The notes under the pieces were generated by a model. It saw only the letters and a program-made list of their open reading frames with translations. It ran no database searches and was not told where the DNA came from. Below, piece after piece: positions 1 through 48,693 of a stretch of 48,693 bases of DNA. Position 1 is the stretch's first letter. Every line of letters starts with the position of its first letter. Position numbers and translations under genes: made by a program. Source of the stretch: an uncultured Clostridium sp. (GTDB taxonomy: Bacteria > Bacillota > Clostridia > TANB77 > CAG-508). Location: the NCBI GenBank assembly GCA_947245515.1, contig CAMXQV010000008.1, positions 1 to 48,693 on the forward strand. The letters run 5' to 3'.

Positions 1-50
1 CGAGTAGATTTTATAAATACAAATAAATAATTAAAATTTTAAGCGATTGC
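1..50. repeat. End of a MITE-like inverted-repeat element (partial copy)
   Basis: These bases match the reverse complement of 18371-18424, one arm of the complete element at 18371-18555. The shared parts are the inner GAGTAGATTTTATAAATA stretch and the terminal AAATTTTAAGCGATTGC. A short indel lies in the A-rich middle. The rest of this copy lies off the left edge. It ends 10 bp before the leuS -35 box. Confidence 0.8.
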
Positions 51-60
51 CTTATATTTC

Positions 61-2541: not shown

Positions 2542-2584
2542 TATAAGCCTATTTGTATTATTTTTGATACTAAATAGGCTTATA
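2542..2584. terminator. Bidirectional hairpin between leuS and the convergent gene
   Basis: A 13-bp perfect inverted repeat (2542-2554 with 2572-2584, core TATAAGCCTATTT) starts 6 bp after the leuS stop and overlaps the stop of the convergent gene. It lacks a strong T-run on either strand, so it is a weak intrinsic terminator or an mRNA 3'-end stabiliser serving both genes. Confidence 0.6.
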
Positions 2585-3230
2585 TCTTGTTTAAACTGGA
2601 TTTTAAATAGTAGATTTCGCCATCATGTTGTTCAATTTTTTTCTCACATAAATGAATTTTCCTTTTACTTTTTTCTATATTATCTAAGTTAATTGTATAT
2701 GCTTCAAATAGAATATCTAATTTTTTTCCATGTTCTACTTCTATTACTGTGACAGCTCTACTAATACTTCTAATTTCTTTTTGCATACTTGGTATTATCA
2801 TTTCTTTTAATTCTATCATTTCTTGATTAAATTTCTTTACTTCTTGTTTTAAATAATTAATATCTTGTCTTAAAGGTGCAATAGCTTTCTCTATTTTACT
2901 ATCTATTAAATCACCTATTGATTGTGTTAATGTGTTTTTTATCTCTATATTTACTGATTTTGTTATTGTATTTTTTACCACAATATCTATTTCTTTTGCT
3001 ACTGCTTTTTTAACTGCTATATCTACTTCTTTTGCTACTGCTTTCTTTACTGCTATATCTACTTCTTTTGCTACTGCTTTCTTTACTGCTATGTCTACTT
3101 CTTTTGCTACTGCTTTCTTTACTGCTACATCTACTGATTTTGTTACTGCTTTATCTACTGCTACATTTACAGTCTCAACTATTATAATTTTCATTGTTTG
3201 AAAAAATTCTTCCTTTTCTTCCTTAGTCAT
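2580..3230 (-). CDS. Unknown protein made of 12-residue amphipathic helical repeats
   Basis: The product is about 216 residues and matches no family I recognise. After a short acidic N-terminus it runs through seven to eight tandem 12-residue units with consensus VDIAVKKAVAKE; the central ones are identical and the outer ones diverged (for example IDIVVKNTITKS). A second half rich in Lys, Glu and Ile follows and looks like coiled coil. There is no signal peptide or membrane segment, so it is probably cytoplasmic. I chose the internal ATG (MTKEEKEEF) because AGGAGGTGA lies just before it; a longer start seven codons upstream would put the ribosome site inside the gene. It has its own consensus promoter. 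A role in binding DNA, membrane or a partner helix is possible but not shown. Confidence 0.75.
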   Translation of the reverse strand: MTKEEKEEFFQTMKIIIVETVNVAVDKAVTKSVDVAVKKAVAKEVDIAVKKAVAKEVDIAVKKAVAKEVDIAVKKAVAKEIDIVVKNTITKSVNIEIKNTLTQSIGDLIDSKIEKAIAPLRQDINYLKQEVKKFNQEMIELKEMIIPSMQKEIRSISRAVTVIEVEHGKKLDILFEAYTINLDNIEKSKRKIHLCEKKIEQHDGEIYYLKSSLNKI

Positions 3231-3276
3231 ACTGTCACCTCCTTTTTTCAATTTTACTACAATTAATTGTGTTATT

Positions 3277-9827: not shown

Positions 9828-12800
9828 TCATGATTTTTTCATCTTTGATATTATATCATTTTTTGACCTATTATCAATATAATTATATTCATTTCCCTTT
9901 TGTTTTGTATTAAATCCACATATTGGTTTATAAGAACAATATTCACATGGTGTTTTTCCTTTTTTATTGTAAGGTTTCAAATCTATTTTTCCACTTAAGA
10001 TCTCCTTTGATATATCTTTTATTATTTTGTCAATATAATCCTGTAAAATTTTAAATTGTTCTTTGTTTACACCACTTGTCCATTTTTCGTTAACTGTTCC
10101 AGATACTGTAATCGCTGCTGGCACTAGTTTTGAACTTCCTGATTCTAAAGTATTATCATTCATTTTTATTATTTTTACATCTGCTATTATTAAACCTTTC
10201 ATTCTAAAGTTTTTCCTAATCAGTTCTTCTATTTCTTCTTCTGATATTTTTTTGTCGGCCTTTACCATTTGCTCTAATAGAGAAAAGTAAAATACCCCTG
10301 CTGGCATTATGTCTTCTGTTTTGCAAATAGCATCTGTATAGGTTAACAGTTGAATTTGAAGACCTGCATAAACTTCATTTAAATCTATATTTTTACTTGA
10401 AGATTTATAATCTATTATTCTTAGATATTTTCCTTCCTCTGAACTTGCAGTATCTATTCTATCTATCTTTCCTGTTATTTCAACTTTTTTACCATTTTCT
10501 AATTCTAAAACAATTGGAGGATATTCCCCTTTTTTGTTAAATTCAATTTCTGTTCCCTCTATATTAAAATCACTGTGTATTAACGTTTCTATTATATATT
10601 TTAAGGCTTTACTCACTATTCTTTTTAATCTTCTTACTAATACTTTATACTTAGTAGTGGCTATAAATATATAATTTTTGCTTAAGTTTAAATTTCTATC
10701 AATTATCTTGGACACAATTTTTGAAATTTGTTCTTCTTCAATTTCTGTTAATAATATTTTTTCATCTCTTATGTATTCAAAAAATTCATCTATTGTTTCA
10801 TGCATAAACGAACCTGTATTAAAACTTTGTACTCTTAATTCTTCTTTTTCTTTTAGTCGTAATCCATATTGTAAATAATATGAAAATGGGCAACTTCTGT
10901 ATTTCTCCAATTGTGATACACTTGTTTTTAAGGTATTTCCATATAATTTTTCAATATTTTCTTTTTTTATACTGTGTGGCAAGTTGCTATATTTTAATCC
11001 TTCTAAAGCTTGACTCAGTCTCTCTTTCCATTCTTTTTGGCTTTTATAATATTTATATATTTCATACCAAATTTGATTAATTTTTTCTCCACTTTCAAGT
11101 TTATAAATATTTTCAATTAATTGTTCATAGGTAATTTCTTGATTTAATATTTCATACTCCTTTTCTATTACATCACTTTTTTCTACTATCTTAGGAAATA
11201 TTTTTTTTATTTTATTTATATATCTTGATGGTCTTAAGGCTTTTGCTTCACTGTCTGTTGATACATATGACATATATAACTGTTTTTCAGCAGTTGTAAA
11301 GGCTTTATAGATATTGAAATTATCTTCATATAATTGTTCTATTGTTCCTTTTGCCATTTCCAATCCATCTTGCTTTAGCTTTTCTCTATCTGTATCATTA
11401 AAAAATCCCTCATCTTTATTTATACTTGGGAAACTTCCATCATTTAGCCCAATTATGAACACATTCTGTACTTTATGACTTCTTGATCTGTCTACATCTC
11501 CAAAAATAACTTGATCTTGTGTCCCTGGTATTTTTCCTAGTCCACTATTTTTTAAGCCTATTTTTAATATTTTACTGTAATTATCTAAGGTCAATTTCTC
11601 GTTATTAAAAATAAGCACAATTTCATCAAATATATTTATTAAAATTTGATAACTTGATTTATATTCTTTTGCTAAATCTATATTACCTGCTTTTTCTAAT
11701 TCATCAAGTTTTAAAGATATTTTTTCTTCTATTTTCTGTTCTTGTATAAATTGATATAAAGTTTTTGTAATATTTATCGCAGTTTTCTCTTTTACTATAT
11801 TTTCTTTTAATTCTAAAAGTGGATTTATAATCTGTTTTCTTATCTCATTTAACCTTTCTATTTCTTGTGTTTTGTTTTCGTTATCTAGTTCATAAATAAA
11901 ATCCTTTTTCCACTTATTTTGTTTTATTCCCCACTTATTACAATAATTTTCTAATTTAAAGATCTCATCTTGTTCTATTTCACAAAAGCCTATTTTCATA
12001 TAACTGAAAACTGCTTCATGTGAAAAGTTCTTTGTTAAGATTTCTAATATAGATAAAATATACTGAATAAGAATATTCTGATTTAAGTCTCTTTTTTCAT
12101 CAATAAATACAGGTATTTCGTATTTATTAAAAATTGCTCTTACTAGAGAAGAATAGGTTTCAATATTTTTTGTTATAATTGATATATCTTTATATCTTAA
12201 AGCTTTGTCTTTCACTAATTTTTTTATTTCTTTTGCTAGATTTTCTACTTCTGAATATGGATTTTTCGCTAAAAATAAATGTAAGTTATCCACATCTTGT
12301 TCAAAAGTTGTGGATTTTATTTCATTAATATTGTCAGCTAAATGTTTTAATTCTTTGGTTTTAAATCTATACTGGCTATTTAAAAATACTGGTTCTTCTA
12401 ATTTAAATCCATTTTCATTTATCAAATCTATTAATTTATATAAGGTAATTTTATTAGTATAATATATGTCTGTGTCTGGATTTACTCCTGGATTTAAATT
12501 ATCAATACCTATTGTTATATTAACTTGTTTTGCATATTTTATTAATTCTTTTATTACTTCATATTCTTGTTTTGTAAAACCTGCAAACTCATCTATATAT
12601 ATAATGCTATTTTTTATAAAGTTAACTTTGCTTAAATTATTGGCAAGTATTGTTAATAAATCTGTTTCATCTATGTAATTGTTGGCAATTTTATTTTCAA
12701 AGTTTTCGTATATTAAGGTCATATCTGTTAATTTGGTTTTTAGATATATATCATCTGTTTTTTCTATTTCATTTTTTAATGTATCTATTGTTATTCCATG

Positions 12801-18287: not shown

Positions 18288-18332
18288 TTTTAATCTCCTT
18301 CCTCAAAACACAAATACCTCTTTTTTTGTTAT

Positions 18333-18360
18333 ATTATATATCATTTTACAGATTTTGCAA
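18333..18360 (-). promoter_or_regulatory. Promoter of rnc
   Basis: On the minus strand TTGCAA (18355-18360) and TATAAT (18333-18338) are 16 bp apart. The -35 lies only 10 bp from the end of the MITE-like element at 18371, so the element forms the DNA just upstream of the core promoter. Confidence 0.65.
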
Positions 18361-18370
18361 GTAAATTAAG

Positions 18371-18555
18371 GCAATCGCTTAAAATTTTAATTATTTTTTT
18401 GTTCATATTTATAAAATCTACTCGCTCCCAAAGGATTATAATTATTTATTGTTTTCGTTGCCCCATTCTCAAAAATAAATAATTATAATCCTTCTCGCGC
18501 TATTTCTAATTAAATTAATATGAACAAAAAAATAATTAAAATTTTAAGCGATTGC
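18371..18555. mobile_element. 185-bp MITE-like element with 39-bp perfect terminal inverted repeats
   Basis: Arms 18371-18409 and 18517-18555 are perfect 39-bp reverse complements starting GCAATCGCTTAAAATTTTAA. A second perfect 18-bp inverted repeat (AAGGATTATAATTATTTA, 18431-18448 with 18476-18493) sits inside. There is no coding capacity. Partial copies are at 1-50 and 14169-14190. The layout fits a non-autonomous transposable element moved by a transposase elsewhere. No clear target-site duplication was found at the ends. Confidence 0.85.
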
Positions 18556-27129: not shown

Positions 27130-27160
27130 ATTGCCAAAATTCTCCGTCCCTAGTGGCAAT
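27130..27160 (-). repeat. REP-like element copy 3, at the stop of the surface-protein gene
   Basis: The minus strand reads ATTGCCA, then AGGGACGGAGAATTT, then TGGCAAT, so the outer 7 bases pair. It begins at the TAA of the 1791-residue gene and could form the mRNA 3' hairpin. Confidence 0.7.
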
Positions 27161-30100
27161 TATAAAGCATATCTTTTTATTAACATTATTCCTCCACCAA
27201 CTGTTATTAATAGAATAAATAACATTGTAAAGAATATCCTAATTTGCCCTGTACCTATAGATAACATTACTGGTGCATTGTCTATATCATCTTCGCCTTG
27301 TTTCTTATTGTCTGGTGTTGAATCTTTATCTGGTAATCCAAATTTGTTATAATCTTTAGATATTTCTGCTGTATTTACTTTGAGTCCTATATTATTTTCA
27401 CCATTTGTCCAAGTAAGTAACACTTCTATATCAGCGTATTCTCCTGGTTTTAATAATCTGTCTTCTAGTAATTTTGTTGTTATTACATTATTTCCTTCAT
27501 CTTTCCAGCCTGGATTATCTGCTTCTATAAATTTTAATCCTTTTGGGATATGATCTTTTATTTCTTTTGCATAACCTTCAACGTCACCTTCATTTATTAC
27601 TCTAATTGAATATCTAAATTTGACTGTTACTTTGTCTACCTTTTTTCTATGTAATTCTACTTTTACAACTTGTTCTGGATCATCAAAGGGTTGATGTCCT
27701 GTGTTTTTTACATTTTGTTTTCCATCTTCAATTACAATTGCTTGTGTTACCCATTTTCTTAAGGCTAAATCAAAGGTCTTTACTACTAATTTTTCAAAAT
27801 CATCATCATCTTGTTGCCCTGAAATATAACTTCCCTTTTCATTATCTTTATATGTTGGTAAGTCTTTATCTTCTGGTAAGACTACATTATTTATTTGTGA
27901 ATCTCTATCTTTTACATCTTTCTTGTTTTCATCTTTATATTCTGTTATATCCGCTATGTTAGTAATCTTTGTACTTTCTGTTATATCACCTTTTACTTTA
28001 CACATTATTGGTACTTCATTATAATCTAATACTATTTTTCCTTCTTCATTTTTTGTTGCTTTTGTTATTATTTTATCTTCTAAGTATCTTGTTGTAGCCG
28101 TTCTTCCATCTTCTGATAGGTTCCATCCATATTTTTTATTAAAGTCCCCATCTACAAATTCTAAGTATGATGGTAGATGATCTTTTATTTCACTTGCATA
28201 TCCATCTACTTCACCTTCATTGTAAACTCTTAACATATATACTACTATATTGTTTCGTTTTACTAATACTGGTTCTTTTGTATGATTATAGCTTGCTGTT
28301 GTTATAATATCTCCTTTTTCGTCTTTGGTATTTAATTTTGTTGTATCTACTACTGGCTCTCTTTTATATAATCCACTTTCATTTTTTAAATAGTCTTTAT
28401 CATCTATTTTTTTGTCATCACTTACTGCAATAATAAATTTTCTTAAACTTAAATCAAATAATTCTTTTGGTATAATAGGCGTTTCAGGAATTATTAACTT
28501 TTCAAAGTCATCATCATCTTGTTGTCCTGCTATATATTCACCTTTTTCATCATCTTTATAGAATGGTAGTTCTTCATCTTTTGGAAGTTTTACATTATTA
28601 CTTTGAGAATCTCTATCTTTTATGGCTTTTTTGTCTCCATCTTTATATTCTGATATTTCTGCTATATTTGTTATTTTTTCATTTACTTTAGATGTGTCTT
28701 TTACTTTACACATTATTGGTACTTCCTTATAACATAAAGTTATTTTACCATCTTCCTTAATATTTGCCTTATTTATTATACTATCTTCTAAATATCTAGT
28801 TGTAACTGTTCTTCCATCTTCTGATATTTCCCATCCATATTTATTATTGAATTCACCCTTTACAAATTCTAAATATGGTGGTAAATGATCTTTTATTTCA
28901 CTTGCATATCCATCTATACTACCTTCATTATAAACTCTTAACATATATATTACTACATCGTTTTTATTGACTTTTACAGGTTCTTTTGTGTGTTTATATA
29001 TTGCTGTTGTTATTATATTTCCTTTTTCATCTTTTGTATCTAATTTTGATGTATCTACTATTGGTGCTCTTTTATAGGTTCCATCTAACTCTTTTATATA
29101 TTCCTTATCTTCTATTATTTCATCCTCACTTATAGCTATAAGGAATTTTCTTAAGCTTAAGTCAAATACCTTTTCAATTTCAACTGGTCTCTCACGTATA
29201 ATAACTTTTTCAAAATCGTCATCATCTTGTTGTCCAGCTATATATTCACCCTTTTCTTCATCTTTATAGGATGGTAATTTTTCATCCTCTGGAAGTTCTA
29301 CATTATTAATTTGTGAATCTCTATCTGTAATTATCTTTTTGTCCCCATCTCTATATTCTGTTATGTCTGCTATATTTGTTATTTTTTGATTTATTTTTGC
29401 TGTACCTTTTACTTTACACATTATTGGTACTTCTTTATAAGATAGTACTATTTTTCCATCTTCATTTTTTGCAATTTTATTAATTTTATTCTTAGTATCA
29501 TCTAAATATTTTGTTGATACTGTCCTTCCATCCTCTGAAACTTTCCAGTCATACTTATCATTAAAGTCACTTTTTACAAATTCTAAATATGGTGGTAAAT
29601 GATCTTTTATTTCACTTGCATATCCATCTATGTCACCTTCATTATAAACTCTTAACATATATATTACTATGTCATTTTTACTTACTTCTACTGGTTCTTT
29701 TGTATGATTATATATTGCTGTTGTTATTAATCTTCCATATTCATCTTCTGTATTTAATTTCGATGTATCTACTTTTGGTGCTCTTTTATAAGATCCATCA
29801 TTATTTTTTAAGTATTCACTACTTTCTATTGTTTCGTCTTTGCTTACTGCTATAATAAATTTTCTTAAAGCTAAATCAAAGGCTTGTAATATTACCTTAT
29901 CATAATCTTCATCATCTTCATATTTCACCCATTTTTCTGTGTCTGAGTCTCTATCGTCTATTGAATTTCCATTTTCATCTGTGTCCTCTGAAATTTCTGC
30001 TTCATTTCTTATAATTGTACCAGTGATATTATCTGATACTACTTTTAATTTTACTGATATTTCTTTATATGATAAGTCAGCTTCTGTTTTTGTTCCATCA

Positions 30101-32535
30101 TTTCTTCCAAAGGCTTTTATTAGGTTTTCAGTAACAGGAACTCTCATGTCTTCTCCTTCTGATGGTGCTGGCTCTCCTCCATACATATCTAAATAGTTTG
30201 TTGATATTTGAGTAATATTCTCTTTTTTATCATCATATACAAATTTTCCCCATAAGTATTTTTGATTAAATTCAATAGCTGATTTTTCTTCATCAGTAAA
30301 GGTTTTATCTGCTTTTAAGTCTGCTCCTTCTTTTTCTGACCATAGGAATTGTAAGCCCTCTGGTATATCTTCAGTTATTTCTGATGCATATCCATCTATT
30401 GTTCCTTCATTGTATATTCTAAAAGTATATGTAACAATATCTCCTTTTTTTACAGCAACTGGTTCTTTGTTTAGTTTATAATTTGCTGTTGTATTTCCAT
30501 CGATGACATTTAATTTGCTTACATCTACACTTTCTATTCTCTCTGAAATTTTAGTACCATTTACTGCAACAATACGCTTAATTAATTTTAAGTCAAAAGT
30601 TTCTGACATTAGAACTAATTTCTCAAAGTCATCATCATCTTGTTGTCCCTTATAGAAATAATTTGAGTCGTTTAAGGTTTCCTTATTGTCTTTTCCTATA
30701 TAGTCTGACATATTATCTTTATTTACATCTGGTCTTGTACTTGGCTCAGAATCTCTATCTGCTTCTTCTTGGTCTGTTATTTCTACATTTGTTTCACCAT
30801 CTACTTCTTTTGATATCCAAGCAACATTTGTTAATATTGTGTGATTTTTTGAATCTGCTATTGCTTTTACTTCACATTCTATTTCAATTGTTTCTTGACT
30901 TGCACTAGTTTTTGAACTTAAACTTCCTTTAGTATAGGCTTCTAAATTTTTTGTATCTCCATCTTTTCTTACTAATATTAAGGTATTATCTCCACTTTCG
31001 TCATATGACCCTAATTTAAAGTTTCCACTTACAATATTTTTAAATTTTAATCCTGTTGGTAATTGATCAATAATTTCTGTTGCTCTTCCTACTTTTTCTC
31101 CTTCATTATATATTGTAATTTTATATGTAACTTTGTCACCTGTTTTTACTGTTACAGGATCTTTTTTATGCTTATATATTGCTGTTGTTCTATCTTCTAA
31201 AGCTTCTTCTTCAACTTTTGGCTCTCTTGATGCTATTCCTGTTAATTCTACATCATTTATTTTTGTTATATATTTTCTTAAAGCTAAATCAAATTTTCTA
31301 CCTGGTGTAGTTAATTTAACTGGTATTGTTTTTTGCTCTTTTGATGGTATTACTACTGGTTGTGCACTATTATTTTTACTTGATGCACAAATAGTTAATT
31401 CTGTGTTACTATAGCTAATATCTATTCCTATATTTAAATTAGCTATTGTTATGCTTTCTCTTGGAATTGATAAATAAAAATCTTTTCCTATTAATTCTTT
31501 AATTGATTCATCTGTAGGAGACTTATGTTCATCTAACAAAATATATGAAGTAAAATCTGCTTCCCCTTGTTTTACTAAAAATTTAAGTGCATAGGTTATA
31601 CTGTTGTCACTTTCTGTTATATTAATTGGTCCTACAATATAATTTTCACCTTTAGTTTCATAATTTAAGGTTGTCGTATTTACTTTTGCTGGTGCATTTG
31701 AAACTTTAGTAAAGTCATAGTTTTTTGCGTTTTCTTTTGCCTGATTTATTAAATATTTATATAATATTTCTGCTTGGGCTTGTCTTTGATATCCTTCATC
31801 TGTATCACGTATCCTAAAATCACTTAAACTAGTATAGTTTCTACCATCAATTGTATAATTTAGCCAAGCCGTTTTGTCTGTTTTATCATATAAAGGCTCT
31901 CCATAGTTTGTAAAATACCATAAGGCAGATTGTTGCACAGCTTTAACATCATCTTCATTTAGAACCATATCCCATGCTTCACTATTGATTCCTGCTGCTT
32001 GTAATAAGGCATCTTTTTCTTCTGGTGCTGATTTTCCTATAATATAGAAATTATCCAAAATAGCTAAAATAGCATTATATTTACTTATTTTAGTTCCATC
32101 TTCTAACTCTATTTCGCCCTCTACTATTGAGCTTAAAGTTTCATTTTGCTTTCTTATTGCTTCTTTTTCAGTTTTCATGTTATAAAAAATATCATATTCT
32201 TGTCTTTTTTTTGAATCAGAAAAGCCCACTCCAGCCTTTACACAATAAATACTAGCATGTGCTGCGTCTATTGGGGTGTCATCTGTTTCACTAGCATATT
32301 GTACTATATTCCATATTTTTGCTCCCTTAACTGTTGTGTCACTATCATATGGATTTCCTATTCCATATCCAAAGTAGCTTTTTGCCCCTGTTCCAAGATC
32401 TACTTCGTTATTTGACATTAATTCTGTAATTCCTAAATACATGGTTCCTTCTGCATATACTGCACTCTGATAACATGATAATATGCAAAAAATAATTATA
32501 CTTATTGCTATTATTAAAGTTCTTTTTAGCTTCAT
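27160..32535 (-). CDS. Thioester-domain surface adhesin with six DUF11-like stalk modules
   Basis: The 1791-residue product starts with a signal peptide (MKLKRTLIIA to AVYA, cut near residue 28). It continues with a TQXA/TED-type thioester adhesin domain: Cys98 in IYCVKAGVGFS and Gln202 in VQQSALWYFTN are the expected internal thioester pair, which in known proteins binds host amines covalently. Six modules follow, each starting FDLxLRK and containing a VYNEGxxDGYASEI-like DUF11 strand-loop, and most end GQQDDDDFEK. The last module (FDLALRKWVTQ) leads to a transmembrane helix and the basic tail KRYAL; no LPXTG is present. ATG 32535 follows AAGGAGAAAA; 27 bp upstream is an in-frame ATG without support. 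The paralogue upstream on the same strand has the same plan. Ligand unknown. Confidence 0.85.
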   Translation of the reverse strand: MKLKRTLIIAISIIIFCILSCYQSAVYAEGTMYLGITELMSNNEVDLGTGAKSYFGYGIGNPYDSDTTVKGAKIWNIVQYASETDDTPIDAAHASIYCVKAGVGFSDSKKRQEYDIFYNMKTEKEAIRKQNETLSSIVEGEIELEDGTKISKYNAILAILDNFYIIGKSAPEEKDALLQAAGINSEAWDMVLNEDDVKAVQQSALWYFTNYGEPLYDKTDKTAWLNYTIDGRNYTSLSDFRIRDTDEGYQRQAQAEILYKYLINQAKENAKNYDFTKVSNAPAKVNTTTLNYETKGENYIVGPINITESDNSITYALKFLVKQGEADFTSYILLDEHKSPTDESIKELIGKDFYLSIPRESITIANLNIGIDISYSNTELTICASSKNNSAQPVVIPSKEQKTIPVKLTTPGRKFDLALRKYITKINDVELTGIASREPKVEEEALEDRTTAIYKHKKDPVTVKTGDKVTYKITIYNEGEKVGRATEIIDQLPTGLKFKNIVSGNFKLGSYDESGDNTLILVRKDGDTKNLEAYTKGSLSSKTSASQETIEIECEVKAIADSKNHTILTNVAWISKEVDGETNVEITDQEEADRDSEPSTRPDVNKDNMSDYIGKDNKETLNDSNYFYKGQQDDDDFEKLVLMSETFDLKLIKRIVAVNGTKISERIESVDVSKLNVIDGNTTANYKLNKEPVAVKKGDIVTYTFRIYNEGTIDGYASEITEDIPEGLQFLWSEKEGADLKADKTFTDEEKSAIEFNQKYLWGKFVYDDKKENITQISTNYLDMYGGEPAPSEGEDMRVPVTENLIKAFGRNDGTKTEADLSYKEISVKLKVVSDNITGTIIRNEAEISEDTDENGNSIDDRDSDTEKWVKYEDDEDYDKVILQAFDLALRKFIIAVSKDETIESSEYLKNNDGSYKRAPKVDTSKLNTEDEYGRLITTAIYNHTKEPVEVSKNDIVIYMLRVYNEGDIDGYASEIKDHLPPYLEFVKSDFNDKYDWKVSEDGRTVSTKYLDDTKNKINKIAKNEDGKIVLSYKEVPIMCKVKGTAKINQKITNIADITEYRDGDKKIITDRDSQINNVELPEDEKLPSYKDEEKGEYIAGQQDDDDFEKVIIRERPVEIEKVFDLSLRKFLIAISEDEIIEDKEYIKELDGTYKRAPIVDTSKLDTKDEKGNIITTAIYKHTKEPVKVNKNDVVIYMLRVYNEGSIDGYASEIKDHLPPYLEFVKGEFNNKYGWEISEDGRTVTTRYLEDSIINKANIKEDGKITLCYKEVPIMCKVKDTSKVNEKITNIAEISEYKDGDKKAIKDRDSQSNNVKLPKDEELPFYKDDEKGEYIAGQQDDDDFEKLIIPETPIIPKELFDLSLRKFIIAVSDDKKIDDKDYLKNESGLYKREPVVDTTKLNTKDEKGDIITTASYNHTKEPVLVKRNNIVVYMLRVYNEGEVDGYASEIKDHLPSYLEFVDGDFNKKYGWNLSEDGRTATTRYLEDKIITKATKNEEGKIVLDYNEVPIMCKVKGDITESTKITNIADITEYKDENKKDVKDRDSQINNVVLPEDKDLPTYKDNEKGSYISGQQDDDDFEKLVVKTFDLALRKWVTQAIVIEDGKQNVKNTGHQPFDDPEQVVKVELHRKKVDKVTVKFRYSIRVINEGDVEGYAKEIKDHIPKGLKFIEADNPGWKDEGNNVITTKLLEDRLLKPGEYADIEVLLTWTNGENNIGLKVNTAEISKDYNKFGLPDKDSTPDNKKQGEDDIDNAPVMLSIGTGQIRIFFTMLFILLITVGGGIMLIKRYAL

Positions 32536-32579
32536 TTTTTTCTCCTTTTCATCTCTTATCAATAATATCTCTATATATA

Positions 32580-32892: not shown

Positions 32893-35800
32893 TTATATTA
32901 CATATCTTTTTATTAATGTTACTCCTCCTGCTACTGTAATTAGAACTATAAAACCTATTGTAAAATAAATTCTAACTTGACCTGTACTAACAGATAACAT
33001 TACTGGTGCATCATCTATATCATCTTCTCCTGGCTTTTTATTATCTGGTGTAGAATCTTTGTCTGGTATTCCATATTTATTGTAATCTTTAGATATTTCT
33101 GCTGTATTTACTTTTAGTCCAATATTTTCTTCGCTATTTATCCAAGTAAGAAGTACTTCAACATCAGCAAATTCTCCTGGTTTTAACAATTTATTTTCAA
33201 GTAATTTAGTAGTTATTATATTATTACCTTCATTTTTCCAGCCTGGATTATCTGATGCTACAAATTTTAATCCCTTTGGAATATAATCTTTTACTTCTTT
33301 TGCATAGCCTTCAATTTCGCCTTCATTTGTTACCCTTATAGAATATCTAAATTTTACTGTTACATTATTTAATTTCTTTCTATGTAATTCTACTTTTACA
33401 ATTTGTTCAGGGTCATCATATGGCTTATGTCCAGTATTATTAATTGTTTGTTTGCCATCTTCAATAACTATTGCTTGTGTTACCCATTTTCTTAGACTTA
33501 AATCAAATATCTTTTCTGGTTCTTCTGGGATTATTATTTTTTCAAAGTCATCATCATCTTGTTGTCCTGGGATATAATCTCCCTTTTCTTCATTTTTATA
33601 AGATGGTAAATCTTTATCCTCTGGAAGTTTAACATTATTACTTTCTGAGTCTCTATCATTAACTATATTTTTATCTTCATCTCTATATTCTGTTATATCT
33701 GCTATATTTGTTATTCTTTCATTTGTTTTTGCTATATCTTTTACTTTACACATTATTGGTACTTCTTTATAATCAAGTTCTATTTTTCCTTCCACATTTG
33801 TTGTTGCTTTCTCTATAATTTTGTCTTGTAAGTACCTTGTTGTTACTGTTCTTCCATCTTCTGATACTTCCCAGCCATATTTTGTGTTAAATTCTCCTTT
33901 AACAAATTCTAAATATGGTGGTAGATGGTCTTTTATCTCACTTGCATATCCATCTATTTCTCCTTCGTTATATGCTCTTAGCATATATACTACTATGTCA
34001 TTTTTCTTTACAACTAGTGGCTCTTTTGTGTGTTTATATATTGCTGTTGTTATTTTATTTCCTTCTTCATCTTCTGTATTTAATTTTGAGGTATCTACTA
34101 TTGGTGCTCTTTTATAGGTTCCATCTTCATTTTTTAAGTATTCTTTATCTTCTATTGTTGTGTCTTCACTTGTTGCTATTATGAACTTTCTTAAACTTAA
34201 GTCAAATTCCTTCTCTGGCTCTGGTTCTTCAGGTATTATTACTTTTTCAAAATCGTCATCATCTTGTTGTCCTGGGATATAACTTCCCTTTTCGTCATCT
34301 TTATATGCTGGTAAGTCTTCATCTTTTGGTAAGCTTACATTATTACTTTGTGAATCTCTGTCTGTTGCTATATTTTTGTCTTCGTCTCTATATTCTGTTA
34401 TGTCTGCTATATTTGTTATTTTTGTGTTTTCTTTTGCTATTTCTTTTACCTTACACATTATTGGTACTTCTTTGTAGTCTAGCTCTATTTTTCCTTCTGT
34501 ATTTGTTGTTGCTTTCTCTATAATTTTGTCTTGTAAGTATCTTGTTGTTACTGTTCTTCCATCTTCTGATACTTCCCAGCCATATTTTGTGTTAAATTCT
34601 CCTTTAACAAATTCTAAATATGGTGGTAGATGGTCTTTTATCTCACTTGCATATCCATCTATTTCTCCTTCGTTATATGCTCTTAGCATATATACTACTA
34701 TGTCATTTTTCTTTACAACTAGTGGCTCTTTTGTGTGTTTATATATTGCTGTTGTTATTTTATTTCCTTCTTCATCTTCTGTATTTAATTTTGAGGTATC
34801 TACTATTGGTGCTCTTTTATAGGTTCCATCTTCATTTTTTAAGTATTCTTTATCTTCTATTGTTGTGTCTTCACTTGTTGCTATTATGAACTTTCTTAAA
34901 CTTAAGTCAAATTCCTTCTCTGGCTCTGGTTCTTCAGGTATTATTACTTTTTCAAAATCGTCATCATCTTGTTGTCCTGGGATATAACTTCCCTTTTCGT
35001 CATCTTTATATGCTGGTAAGTCTTCATCTTTTGGTAAGCTTACATTATTACTTTGTGAATCTCTGTCTGTTGCTATATTTTTGTCTTCGTCTCTATATTC
35101 TGTTATGTCTGCTATATTTGTTATTTTTGTGTTTTCTTTTGCTATTTCTTTTACCTTACACATTATTGGTACTTCTTTGTAGTCTAGCTCTATTTTTCCT
35201 TCTGTATTTGTTGTTGCTTTCTCTATAATTTTGTCTTGTAAGTATCTTGTTGTTACTGTTCTTCCATCTTCTGATACTTCCCAGCCATATTTTGTGTTAA
35301 ATTCTCCTTTAACAAATTCTAAATATGGTGGTAGATGGTCTTTTATCTCACTTGCATATCCATCTATTTCTCCTTCGTTGTATACTCTTAGCATATATAC
35401 TACTATGTCATTTCTTTTTACTACTAATGGTTCTTTTGTATGCTCATATACTGCTGTTGTTATTTTATTTCCTTCTTTATCTTCTGTATTTAATTTTGAG
35501 GTATCTACCTTTGGTGCTCTTTTATAGGTTCCATCTTCATTTTTCAAGTATTCTCTATCTTCTATTGTTGTATCTTCACTTGATGCTATTATGAATTTTC
35601 TTAAACTTAAGTCAAATTCCTTCTCTGGCTCTGGTTCTTCAGGTATTATTACTTTTTCAAAATCGTCATCATCTTGTTGTCCTGGGATATAACTTCCCTT
35701 TTCGTCATCTTTATATGCTGGTAAGTCTTCATCTTTTGGTAAGCTTACATTATTACTTTGTGAATCTCTGTCTGTTGCTATATTTTTGTCTTCGTCTCTA

Positions 35801-38800
35801 TATTCTGTTATGTCTGCTATATTTGTTATTTTTGTGTTTTCTTTTGCTATTTCTTTTACCTTACACATTATTGGTACTTCTTTGTAGTCTAGCTCTATTT
35901 TTCCTTCTGTATTTGTTGTTGCTTTCTCTATAATTTTGTCTTGTAAGTATCTTGTTGTTACTGTTCTTCCATCTTCTGATACTTCCCAGCCATATTTTGT
36001 GTTAAATTCTCCTTTAACAAATTCTAAATATGGTGGTAGATGGTCTTTTATCTCACTTGCATATCCATCTATTTCTCCTTCGTTATATGCTCTTAGCATA
36101 TATACTACTATGTCATTTTTCTTTACAACTAGTGGCTCTTTTGTGTGTTTATATATTGCTGTTGTTATTTTATTTCCTTCTTCATCTTCTGTATTTAATT
36201 TTGAGGTATCTACTATTGGTGCTCTTTTATAGGTTCCATCTTCATTTTTTAAGTATTCTTTATCTTCTATTGTTGTGTCTTCACTTGTTGCTATTATGAA
36301 CTTTCTTAAACTTAAGTCAAATTCCTTCTCTGGCTCTGGTTCTTCAGGTATTATTACTTTTTCAAAATCGTCATCATCTTGTTGTCCTGGGATATAACTT
36401 CCCTTTTCGTCATCTTTATATGCTGGTAAGTCTTCATCTTTTGGTAAGCTTACATTATTACTTTGTGAATCTCTGTCTGTTGCTATATTTTTGTCTTCGT
36501 CTCTATATTCTGTTATGTCTGCTATATTTGTTATTTTTGTGTTTTCTTTTGCTATTTCTTTTACCTTACACATTATTGGTACTTCTTTGTAGTCTAGCTC
36601 TATTTTTCCTTCTGTATTTGTTGTTGCTTTCTCTATAATTTTGTCTTGTAAGTATCTTGTTGTTACTGTTCTTCCATCTTCTGATACTTCCCAGCCATAT
36701 TTTGTGTTAAATTCTCCTTTAACAAATTCTAAATATGGTGGTAGATGGTCTTTTATCTCACTTGCATATCCATCTATTTCTCCTTCGTTGTATACTCTTA
36801 GCATATATACTACTATGTCATTTCTTTTTACTACTAATGGTTCTTTTGTATGCTCATATACTGCTGTTGTTATTTTATTTCCTTCTTTATCTTCTGTATT
36901 TAATTTTGAGGTATCTACCTTTGGTGCTCTTTTATAGGTTCCATCTTCATTTTTCAAGTATTCTCTATCTTCTATTGTTGTATCTTCACTTGATGCTATT
37001 ATGAATTTTCTTAGACTTAAATCAAATCCCCTTTTTGGTAAAATTAATTTTTCAAAATCATCATCATCTTGTTGACCTTTATAGTAATATTCGGAATCGT
37101 TTAAGTTTTCTTTATTTCCACTTCCTGTATAATCTGACATATTATCTTTATTTACTTCAGGAATTGTACTTGGTTCAGAGTCTCTATCTGCTTTTACTTG
37201 GTTTGTAATTATTATATTACTTTCACTATCTACTTCTTCATCTATCCAAGCAACATTTGTTAAGATCTGATTTTTTTCTATGCTTACAACTGCTATCACT
37301 TCACATTCAATTTCTATAGTTTCAGAATTTGAACTTAAATGTCCACTACTATAAGCACTTAAGTTACTAGTATTTCCATCTTTTCTAACTAAAGTTAGTC
37401 TATTATCACTTTCATTATATGATCCTAGTTTAAAATTTCCACTTACAATATTTTTGAATTTTACCCCTGTTGGTAATTGATCAATAATTCTTGTAGCTCT
37501 TCCCTCTTTTTCACCTTCATTATATATTGTTATTTTATATGTAACTATATTTCCTGTTTTTACAGGTACAGGTTCTTTTTTATGTTTATATATTGCTGTT
37601 GTTTCACTTGCTAGAGTTCCTTCATCTATTACTGGTACTCTTGAATTAACACCTGTAAGTTCTACACCATTAATTTTGGTTATATATTTTCTCAAAGATA
37701 AATCGAAATTTTTAGTTGGTGTTTTTAATTTATAAGGTATTGAAACTGATCCTTTAGTTGGTTTTACTAAAGGTTGTGCAGAATTATTTTTGCTTGATCC
37801 ATATAAAGTTAAGTTGGTATCACTGTAATTTATATTAATTTCTAAATTTAGGTCAGCTATTGTTACACTACTTTTAGGAATTGATATATAAAAATTGCTT
37901 CCAACTAAATCCTTTACTGTACTTGTTGTAGGTCTTTCATTTTGATCTAATAAACTATATGTTGTAATTGTTTTTGTACCATCTTTTACAAGAAAATCAA
38001 TTGTGTATGGAACTTTATTTGTTCCTTCACTGATATTTATTGGTCCTACTATATAATTTTCACCACTAGCTTTATAATTTAAAGAAGTTGTATTTACTGT
38101 TGCTGGTGCGTTTCCTCCTGTTGAGGTTTCATATTTAGGTGCATTTTCTACTGCTGTTTCTATCAAGTATTGATATAATAATTCAGCTTGTATTTGTCTT
38201 TGTTGTCCTTCACGTGTTTCTAAATTATAATCACTTAAACTAGTATAATTTCTTCCATCTGTTGTATAATTTAACCACCCTGATTTTCCTATTTTATTAA
38301 ATAAACTCTCTTCATAATTTGTAAAATACCACAAAGCAGATTGTTCAACTGCTTTAATATCATCATCGTTTAATATAACATCCCATTCATCTGTCCAATC
38401 TGGCATGTGTATAATGTTTGCTGCACGTAATAGAGCTTCTTTTTCTTTAGCTTCTGATTCGCCTGGTATATAAAAAATATCAAATATAGCCAAAATAGCA
38501 TTATATACCTTTACTGTTTTACCATTATAAGTTACTGTTCCATCTACAATTGATTTTAATATATCGTTTTGATTCCTTATTTGCTCTTTTTCTGTTTTAA
38601 AATTAAAAGCTAAATCATAATCTTCCCCTTTTTTTGTGTCAGAAAATCCTACTCCAGCTTTTACACAAAAAATAGTAGATGGCACTATATGTGACCCGCT
38701 ATCATATTCAACTATATTCCAAATTTTTGCTCCTTTTGCTTTTGTATCACTATCATATGGGTTCCCGATTGCGTATCCCATACCACTTGACATTAATTCA

Positions 38801-38910
38801 GTAACTGAAAAATGTATTATGCTGTCAGCATAAACTATATTTTTAAAACAACTTAGTATGAAAAATATAATTATGCTAATAACTATTATTGGTTTAATCT
38901 TAACTCGCAT
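32893..38910 (-). CDS. Thioester-domain surface adhesin with five near-identical 235-residue repeats
   Basis: The 2005-residue product has a signal peptide (cut near residue 28 after IVYA), then a thioester adhesin domain with Cys82 (IFCVKAGVGFS) and Gln190 (VEQSALWYFTN). A first DUF11-like module starts at about 402 (FDLSLRKYITK). Five tandem 235-residue modules then occupy about 629-1803; each starts FDLSLRKFI, contains VYMLRxYNEGEIDGYASEI and ITNIADITEY, and ends GQQDDDDFEK. A last module (FDLSLRKWVTQ) precedes a transmembrane helix and KRYVI. No LPXTG motif is visible, so anchoring is by the helix or by an unusual sorting signal. AAAAGGAGAGG precedes the ATG. A conserved Lys near each module start and an Asn near its end are possible isopeptide partners. 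The protein should project far from the membrane and bind host or microbial surfaces. Confidence 0.87.
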   Translation of the reverse strand: MRVKIKPIIVISIIIFFILSCFKNIVYADSIIHFSVTELMSSGMGYAIGNPYDSDTKAKGAKIWNIVEYDSGSHIVPSTIFCVKAGVGFSDTKKGEDYDLAFNFKTEKEQIRNQNDILKSIVDGTVTYNGKTVKVYNAILAIFDIFYIPGESEAKEKEALLRAANIIHMPDWTDEWDVILNDDDIKAVEQSALWYFTNYEESLFNKIGKSGWLNYTTDGRNYTSLSDYNLETREGQQRQIQAELLYQYLIETAVENAPKYETSTGGNAPATVNTTSLNYKASGENYIVGPINISEGTNKVPYTIDFLVKDGTKTITTYSLLDQNERPTTSTVKDLVGSNFYISIPKSSVTIADLNLEININYSDTNLTLYGSSKNNSAQPLVKPTKGSVSIPYKLKTPTKNFDLSLRKYITKINGVELTGVNSRVPVIDEGTLASETTAIYKHKKEPVPVKTGNIVTYKITIYNEGEKEGRATRIIDQLPTGVKFKNIVSGNFKLGSYNESDNRLTLVRKDGNTSNLSAYSSGHLSSNSETIEIECEVIAVVSIEKNQILTNVAWIDEEVDSESNIIITNQVKADRDSEPSTIPEVNKDNMSDYTGSGNKENLNDSEYYYKGQQDDDDFEKLILPKRGFDLSLRKFIIASSEDTTIEDREYLKNEDGTYKRAPKVDTSKLNTEDKEGNKITTAVYEHTKEPLVVKRNDIVVYMLRVYNEGEIDGYASEIKDHLPPYLEFVKGEFNTKYGWEVSEDGRTVTTRYLQDKIIEKATTNTEGKIELDYKEVPIMCKVKEIAKENTKITNIADITEYRDEDKNIATDRDSQSNNVSLPKDEDLPAYKDDEKGSYIPGQQDDDDFEKVIIPEEPEPEKEFDLSLRKFIIATSEDTTIEDKEYLKNEDGTYKRAPIVDTSKLNTEDEEGNKITTAIYKHTKEPLVVKKNDIVVYMLRAYNEGEIDGYASEIKDHLPPYLEFVKGEFNTKYGWEVSEDGRTVTTRYLQDKIIEKATTNTEGKIELDYKEVPIMCKVKEIAKENTKITNIADITEYRDEDKNIATDRDSQSNNVSLPKDEDLPAYKDDEKGSYIPGQQDDDDFEKVIIPEEPEPEKEFDLSLRKFIIASSEDTTIEDREYLKNEDGTYKRAPKVDTSKLNTEDKEGNKITTAVYEHTKEPLVVKRNDIVVYMLRVYNEGEIDGYASEIKDHLPPYLEFVKGEFNTKYGWEVSEDGRTVTTRYLQDKIIEKATTNTEGKIELDYKEVPIMCKVKEIAKENTKITNIADITEYRDEDKNIATDRDSQSNNVSLPKDEDLPAYKDDEKGSYIPGQQDDDDFEKVIIPEEPEPEKEFDLSLRKFIIATSEDTTIEDKEYLKNEDGTYKRAPIVDTSKLNTEDEEGNKITTAIYKHTKEPLVVKKNDIVVYMLRAYNEGEIDGYASEIKDHLPPYLEFVKGEFNTKYGWEVSEDGRTVTTRYLQDKIIEKATTNTEGKIELDYKEVPIMCKVKEIAKENTKITNIADITEYRDEDKNIATDRDSQSNNVSLPKDEDLPAYKDDEKGSYIPGQQDDDDFEKVIIPEEPEPEKEFDLSLRKFIIATSEDTTIEDKEYLKNEDGTYKRAPIVDTSKLNTEDEEGNKITTAIYKHTKEPLVVKKNDIVVYMLRAYNEGEIDGYASEIKDHLPPYLEFVKGEFNTKYGWEVSEDGRTVTTRYLQDKIIEKATTNVEGKIELDYKEVPIMCKVKDIAKTNERITNIADITEYRDEDKNIVNDRDSESNNVKLPEDKDLPSYKNEEKGDYIPGQQDDDDFEKIIIPEEPEKIFDLSLRKWVTQAIVIEDGKQTINNTGHKPYDDPEQIVKVELHRKKLNNVTVKFRYSIRVTNEGEIEGYAKEVKDYIPKGLKFVASDNPGWKNEGNNIITTKLLENKLLKPGEFADVEVLLTWINSEENIGLKVNTAEISKDYNKYGIPDKDSTPDNKKPGEDDIDDAPVMLSVSTGQVRIYFTIGFIVLITVAGGVTLIKRYVI
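33502..37026 (-). repeat. Five tandem 705-bp coding repeats (order B-A-B-A-A)
   Basis: The repeats are exactly 705 bp (235 codons) each. Counting from the N-terminus, units 1 and 3 share type B changes (REYL, APKVD, EHTKEP, VKRND) and units 2, 4 and 5 share type A changes (KEYL, APIVD, KHTKEP, VKKND). Copies of the same type are identical over long stretches of DNA, which points to very recent duplication of a 1410-bp BA block. Unit 5 diverges at its C-terminal end. Confidence 0.95.
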
Positions 38911-47703: not shown

Positions 47704-48693
47704 CTATTTACCCAATTCTTCTTTTGATCCATTTCCTATATTCTCTTTTTCACTTGCTGATTTAGCAGCTTGCTTTTCAATACTTCCTTCACTATTTTCT
47801 ACATTAAATTGCTCTTTAAATTGTTTTTCGTCCCAACCTTTAAAGAAATTTTCAATATCATATAAATCTTCATCAATATTATTAGATAATTCTTGTAATT
47901 CATGTAATTCTTGTTCATCCTTAGTATTATATTTTCTTCCACTAGTTAAAGCTTTATTTCTATTAAATTTTTTACCTTTTATTAATGCTCCTGATTTTTG
48001 TTCAGCTTTTGTATATTTTCTCAATTTAAGCTTTTCAAATAGGTTCAAGCCTTCTAAATTATGTGTTAATTCAAAAGGTAATTCTTCTTTATTATATATT
48101 GAAGAAATATATCCTTTAATTAAATCTGGATTGTTTTGAATAGCTTGTATTACTGCTGGATTAATTTTTCTATATAAATTTCTTGATGCAATTCCCTTCC
48201 CAGCAATGTCTTTACAAATTCCCTTAATATCTAATCTTTTAAATTTATCCTTTTTCTCTTCTTGTGCACTGAAAATACTAGAACTTTTTGTTTCACCATT
48301 AGTATTTGATATTGTTACAAAACCAATTTTTTCATCTATTATTATTGATGTTTTTTCTATTTGCTCCATTACTTGTGTACCAGTTGAATTTGATGTTGTT
48401 TTATCATTTAAATTTAAATGAATATTTTTGTAATCTTCATTAATTATATCCTTTTGAATCTTTTTACCAAGTTCTTCTATTGGTTCCTTTGATAATACAT
48501 TATGTACTTTATTCTTTTTTTCTGTATTTAATGTTATATTAGCTGTTTCAATTTGATCTGGTTGCAAGTGTATATTTTTATAGTCACTGTTCATATCTTT
48601 TAAAATATTATTGCCTTTTTCTTCTAATTGTTGTTTTACTTTTTCCTCTTCTTGTCTTGCTTTTTCCTCTTCTTGTCTTGCTTTTTCCTCTTC
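47704..48693 (-). CDS. Coiled-coil-rich protein of unknown function (5' end cut by the window edge)
   Basis: The frame stays open to the right edge, so the true start lies beyond it; the visible part is 329 codons. At the edge the protein has repeated EEEKARQ heptads (21-bp DNA repeats), then two copies of a DYKNIHL motif about 50 residues apart, a Ser/Thr-rich middle, a Lys/Arg-rich stretch (LRKYTKAEQKSGALIKGKK) and an acidic end. An in-frame ATG at 48594 is an internal methionine without a ribosome site. No family is recognised, and no membrane segment is seen in the visible part. Confidence 0.7.
   Translation of the reverse strand, partial: EEEKARQEEEKARQEEEKVKQQLEEKGNNILKDMNSDYKNIHLQPDQIETANITLNTEKKNKVHNVLSKEPIEELGKKIQKDIINEDYKNIHLNLNDKTTSNSTGTQVMEQIEKTSIIIDEKIGFVTISNTNGETKSSSIFSAQEEKKDKFKRLDIKGICKDIAGKGIASRNLYRKINPAVIQAIQNNPDLIKGYISSIYNKEELPFELTHNLEGLNLFEKLKLRKYTKAEQKSGALIKGKKFNRNKALTSGRKYNTKDEQELHELQELSNNIDEDLYDIENFFKGWDEKQFKEQFNVENSEGSIEKQAAKSASEKENIGNGSKEELGK

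Follow-up and report, generated by a model that had tools for sequence, protein, structure and literature searches.

A two-type array of 705-bp modules in the stalk region of a predicted thioester-tipped adhesin gene from an uncultured Clostridia genus

Periscope Proteins such as SasG, Rib and Sgo_0707 have recombining stalks of variable length (PMC8201768, PMC9704523). Both the tip and the module families of the adhesin considered here have already been described (PMC6194298, PMC12617251, PMC9210967), and some genera are known to encode only one class of thioester domain (PMC6194298). In the cmbA adhesin gene of Limosilactobacillus reuteri, earlier Sanger and short-read assemblies contained fewer intragenic repeats than later hybrid sequencing did (PMC13339910). 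Here we analyzed a repeat-bearing gene in a 48,693-nt stretch of DNA (the window), which is the entire contig C8; the genome comprises 87 contigs and 1.84 Mb. The gene fits the known class of periscope-type, thioester-tipped fibrillar adhesins and has a C-terminal motif that is conserved and is not LPxTG.

The open reading frame of this gene (gene 1; 32893–38910, minus strand, as are all gene features below) encodes 2005 aa. Pfam DUF11 (PF01345) matched it in seven stretches (E = 9.6e-40) with 135.9 bits against a cut-off of 24.6. From its N-terminus the protein comprises a signal peptide, a class II-like thioester domain, a first DUF11 domain, five tandem modules of DUF11 (CLIPPER) type, one last domain and, at the end, a putative membrane anchor. 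The signal peptide (aa 1–28; 38827–38910), with cleavage after VYA judged by eye, and the C-terminal hydrophobic segment were read by inspection of the sequence. The thioester domain (37717–38826) was recognized from homologues, an AF2 model and PDB fold matches. The first DUF11 domain (FDLSLRKYI; 37027–37707) lies outside the array, and the last domain (FDLSLRKWV; 33007–33507) follows u5. The five modules span aa 629 to 1801 and each starts with FDLSLRKFI. An earlier note on this DNA had assigned them to the stalk of an adhesin, and the analysis supports this reading for a surface protein of adhesin-like build. Pfam hits to AIRS_C, TRI4_N and others with zero passing stretches were discarded as weak matches summed over identical repeats. 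PDB sequence searches with the whole protein and with module and tip profiles returned nothing useful, whereas fold comparison did give matches.

Ungapped comparison placed the units, in transcription order, at 36322–37026 (u1, type B), 35617–36321 (u2, type A), 34912–35616 (u3, type B), 34207–34911 (u4, type A) and 33508–34206 (u5, with an A-type front and a divergent back half). The earlier note had described five 705-bp repeats, equal in length to the base and ordered B-A-B-A-A from position 33502. The analysis did find five in-register copies, spaced 705 bp apart and with the types in this order, but only u1 to u4 are 705 bp long; u5 has 699 bp (233 codons instead of 235) and is bounded at 33508, so the proposed boundary ran 6 bp into the last domain. 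At the DNA level the array units are 91–100% identical, and with their predicted fold this places them among the high-identity tandem folded repeats of more than 50 residues by which Periscope Proteins are defined.

The claimed identity of same-type units over hundreds of bases was borne out: u2 and u4 had 0 differences in 705 nt, and u1 and u3 differed only at nt 5 and 12 (zero-based numbering). Exact repeats comprised one of 1417 bp at a lag of 1410 (34187–35603 and 35597–37013), one of 839 bp at lags of 705 and 2115, and one of 488 bp occurring twice at a lag of 705, all far exceeding chance. The alternation of two sequence types held for the front part of the unit alone, where the 19 differences between A (u2) and B (u3) were all confined to nt 20–236. 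Next comes a stretch of 134 bp without a single difference among the five units (unit nt 237–370; 33836–33969 in u5). From nt 371 on, u1 to u4 share one back half, from which u5 differs at 57 sites; u5 is thus a hybrid of an A front and a third, divergent back half, and the array is best notated by its fronts (B A B A A) and its backs (X X X X Y) separately. The start of u3 is A-like over its first 20 nt (nt 5 and 12) and carries B-like sites through the rest of the front, while the first 21 nt of u1 agree with the beginning of the last domain.

The mosaic reads as the footprint of intragenic recombination, which we take to be recent given the exact repeats. The simplest route would start from two modules, B-X and A-Y, with a crossover within the shared 134-bp tract yielding B-X, A-X, A-Y; a second exchange would then insert another B-X and A-X, with its junction inside a unit, at about nt 13–20, since u3 is A-like at nt 5 and 12 and B-like from nt 20. 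The two-unit block duplication proposed in the earlier note is likely, but gene conversion could have left an indistinguishable trace and explains the junction inside u3 equally well. If an array of A units had been patched by a tract of about nt 20–236 copied from u1 to u3, no block need have been duplicated, and both the A-like first 20 nt of u3 and the match of the u1 start to the last domain suit this course of events. A crossover with its junction in nt 13–20 fits these observations as well and has the further effect of adding units, and we consider the conversion tract a serious possibility but the less probable one. Protein selection without recombination is hardly credible as the cause of the unit identity. 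The 235-codon units are in frame and under real constraint (dN/dS about 0.15), yet silent sites are unchanged over 1417 bp, while dN and dS reach 0.046 and 0.31 between the A and B fronts and 0.10 and 0.62 between the X and Y backs, and the paralogue modules also diverge at silent sites; identity at silent sites already contradicts selection as the cause and points to recombination. A and B could also be alleles of two co-assembled strains merged into one contig, as the metagenome-style short-read assembly and the restriction of A/B differences to one short segment might suggest, but a dS of 0.31 between fronts is large for strains within one species and makes such a merger improbable.

How far the count of five and the order can be trusted depends on the assembly. 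The first 55 nt of the window (1–55) match the end of contig C11 exactly and the last 55 (48639–48693) match contig C45 near its start (18–72); overlaps of exactly 55 nt likewise occur at the C3/C14 and C10/C3 termini, and no overlaps longer than 55 nt were found from contig termini. Such end overlaps are the signature of a k=55 de Bruijn short-read assembly and led us to reject a long-read origin of the contig. A k of 55 is the usual last k of metaSPAdes. From the pieces present in the gene we composed model arrays of between two and eight units and set their substring sets side by side; each substring length admits at least the alternatives given here. At 55–127 bases, three units already reproduced all substrings, and the 55-mer set was common to BAB, BBA and many others. 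Four units sufficed at 150–300 bases, where BABA and BBAA shared the 150-mer set of B-A-B-A-A. BAABA, BABABAA and others still fitted at 500–840 bases, with a shared 840-mer set, and BABABAA still fitted at 1000 bases; BABAA stood alone at 1420 bases. Resolving B-A-B-A-A thus needs contiguity of more than 1 kb, and, given the k=55 assembly and the non-unique substring sets, the five-copy count and the order are the assembler's inferences rather than read-supported facts. The warning in the earlier note that short reads may miscount such copies therefore applies, more strongly than it was put, to this very contig. The chances are about even that assembly accounts for part of the five-unit order; the assembler would then have chosen the number of turns of a repeat-graph loop, and the true array may have three, four or more than five units. 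Besides the 55-nt overlaps and the substring sets, this would fit the absence of any detected 16S gene from the assembly and the length of the next longest exact tandem repeat within a contig, 353 bp in about 400 kb of genome sampled (lag 342, at 11119–11813 of contig C6, locus L139). On the other side, paired reads may have constrained the walk, and all 55-mers, including those of the A-to-B junction, should derive from reads, which, for a contig that is not chimeric, implies three modules or more and a B module in an internal position. Such an artefact bears on how many modules there are and leaves the kind of gene unaffected. Short-read assemblies would be expected to break at identical modules or to collapse them, and arrays of this kind are probably under-reported.

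Other repeats were found on the same contig. A dispersed short inverted-repeat element, MITE/REP-like in appearance, lies at 1–66, 18325–18424 and 18524–18555 of the window and has 49 genome-wide matches, often paired on opposite strands at a distance of about 200 bp; it also forms the end of several contigs. A 36-bp minisatellite of 6.6 copies (2935–3170) falls within an open reading frame at 2580–3251 on the minus strand, and a 21-bp tandem repeat at the contig end (48615–48693), in an open reading frame that runs off the contig, continues into contig C45.

The tip was modelled by AF2 with a pLDDT of 86.9, and its top four PDB fold matches, led by 6fwy and 6fwv at E of about 7e-9, were all class II thioester domains (TEDs; E = 7e-9 to 4e-8) at TM-scores of 0.22–0.38. 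In the homologue alignment, Cys82 (38665–38667), Gln190 (38341–38343) and Gln379 (37774–37776) were invariant in 19 homologues. The FCVK motif at Cys82 fits [YFL]C-hydrophobic-hydrophilic, a motif present in 54 of 56 genes, and Gln379 (AQPLV) follows an insert of about 105 residues that is absent in short forms. In genes of the genus without the class II insert, about 100 residues separate the QxAxW Gln from the QP Gln, as against 190–200. Pfam TED (PF08341) scored 18.0 bits in gene 1 (E = 0.0039) and 21.8 in its paralogue, both below the gathering score of 22, and for this reason the tip is called TED-like by its fold and its residues and not by Pfam score. Thioester domains of both kinds, class I-like and class II-like, occur within this one genus, often in adjacent genes (loci L082–L121).

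The stalk module is likewise predicted to be folded (u2 AF2 model, pLDDT 89.1). The model matched the CLIPPER crystal structure 9ifr (E = 4.7e-5) as well as integrin Ig-like domains and the isopeptide pilins BcpA and RrgB; for module and tip alike, the E-values of fold matches were significant and the TM-scores modest (0.2–0.5). Lys13 and Asn173 were invariant in 36 modules, in keeping with a predicted Lys–Asn isopeptide bond in each module, whereas the expected catalytic acid was not invariant: the obvious Asp position held D in 20, N in 13 and S in 3 of these modules.

At the C-terminus, gene 1 encodes an SVSTG motif, a hydrophobic segment and a KRYVI tail (32896–32994), which together form a putative sorting signal. 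The pattern [STAG][IVM]xTG occurs in 71 of 72 C-termini of the genus, and LPxT[GA] in 0 of the 72; the conserved motif goes with a hydrophobic stretch and a basic tail. With seven sortase matches above the cut-off in the genome, the xxxTG motif is a candidate for an unusual sortase signal. At least three further large proteins from this genome (L183–L185) carry a motif of the same form as that at 32980–32994, and true LPKTG proteins are present beside them.

Adjacent to gene 1 lies a paralogue of 1800 aa (gene 2; 27160–32562, minus strand; open reading frame with a TED PF08341 match at E = 2.5e-4). Its three homologous units (27775–29880) are 80–82% identical to one another and 81–82% identical to the array units, in line with the divergence that the earlier note had seen in the paralogue. 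Of the 195 genomes of the genus searched for the tip domain, 178 had it, and module DNA matched in 208 of 211 genomes, with a best outside identity of 80% and, at the weak end, short matches to single motifs; the named relatives are uncultured Clostridia MAGs. A scan of viral contigs found no relatives of the module. Across 40 stretches of the genus, the 53 complete genes carried one module (25 genes), two (16), three (7), four (1), five (3) or none (1). These counts support variation of stalk length between species of the genus. The earlier note had expected adhesin length to vary among strains; the one to five modules in 52 of the 53 complete genes show variation between species, in a comparison with one genome per species.

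Within-gene module identity was mostly 67–86% and reached 100% only in the array gene, with lineage-specific near-copies of 93–95% in several lineages (L116, 95%; L118, 94%; L120, 93%) and of 91–93% at L099. In a tree of 110 modules, the five array units formed one clade (SH-aLRT 99), which indicates an expansion local to this lineage, and the paralogue units were nearest outside it. L099 (genome G088) is a second candidate higher-order array, with five modules of which three are of one type (91–93%) and two are others. At L089 and L117, the terminal modules of two adjacent paralogues are protein-identical, through either paralogue exchange or an assembly chimera.

The repeats and their mosaic structure, the predicted folds, the lineage-specific expansion and the one to five modules per gene between species are what a functional proposal can build on. 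The array probably forms the stalk of a thioester-tipped fibrillar adhesin in which recombination between modules alters reach. The tip would bind its target covalently through the predicted Cys82–Gln379 thioester, and the stalk would consist of DUF11/CLIPPER beta-sandwich modules in series, with a predicted internal isopeptide bond locking each one. The C-terminus may be held at the membrane, or by sortase via the non-LPxTG signal. With up to about 1.4 kb of DNA identical from module to neighbouring module, homologous recombination among the modules is to be expected, and unequal crossover and conversion would add, remove and homogenize modules in frame; a changed module number would alter how far the tip reaches. 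A wider scheme is more doubtful, namely that a genus-wide pair of covalent-tip adhesins uses non-canonical xxxTG sorting, that fast intragenic recombination in the two-type array sets stalk length, and that cells within a population differ in reach.

As in Periscope Proteins, where recombination has been proposed to set length, the array gene would place an N-terminal functional domain on a stalk of domains that are predicted to fold and are repeated in tandem with very high identity in their DNA. Unlike in those proteins, the length variation seen in its family is between species, its modules are DUF11-type domains of about 235 aa and its count comes from short reads. If the proposal holds, variable-length stalks also occur on adhesins with a thioester tip, in an uncultured genus of Clostridia whose genomes nearly all carry the family. 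With the class II thioester proteins BaTIE and EfmTIE86 (PMC6194298), gene 1 shares the tip fold, the Cys motif FCVK, a TQxxPhiW-like motif (EQSALW) and an insert before the presumed bond-forming Gln, but its stalk is DUF11 (CnaA-like) rather than CnaB, it has no LPxTG, and the identity in the fold matches is only 11–12%. The pLS20 TIE protein (PMC8092201) is likewise a thioester adhesin without LPxTG, but it lacks a C-terminal sorting signal, whereas gene 1 has the conserved xxxTG, hydrophobic stretch and basic tail. The array module resembles CLIPPER (DUF11; 9ifr; PMC12617251) in its Pfam family, its CnaA-like fold and its invariant first-strand Lys and late-strand Asn, but it is longer, with insertions, and its candidate catalytic Asp is not invariant.

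For repeat counting, the contig illustrates a general trap: it seems contiguous across a 1.4-kb exact repeat although it was assembled at k=55, and repeat counts from such genomes are not data. In this respect cmbA seems the closest practical parallel, for its intragenic macrosatellite (PMC13339910) also consists of identical in-frame adhesin repeats with a last repeat a few bp shorter, but in CmbA the repeats are of 288 bp and one type, number 8–11 copies and encode an unrelated domain.
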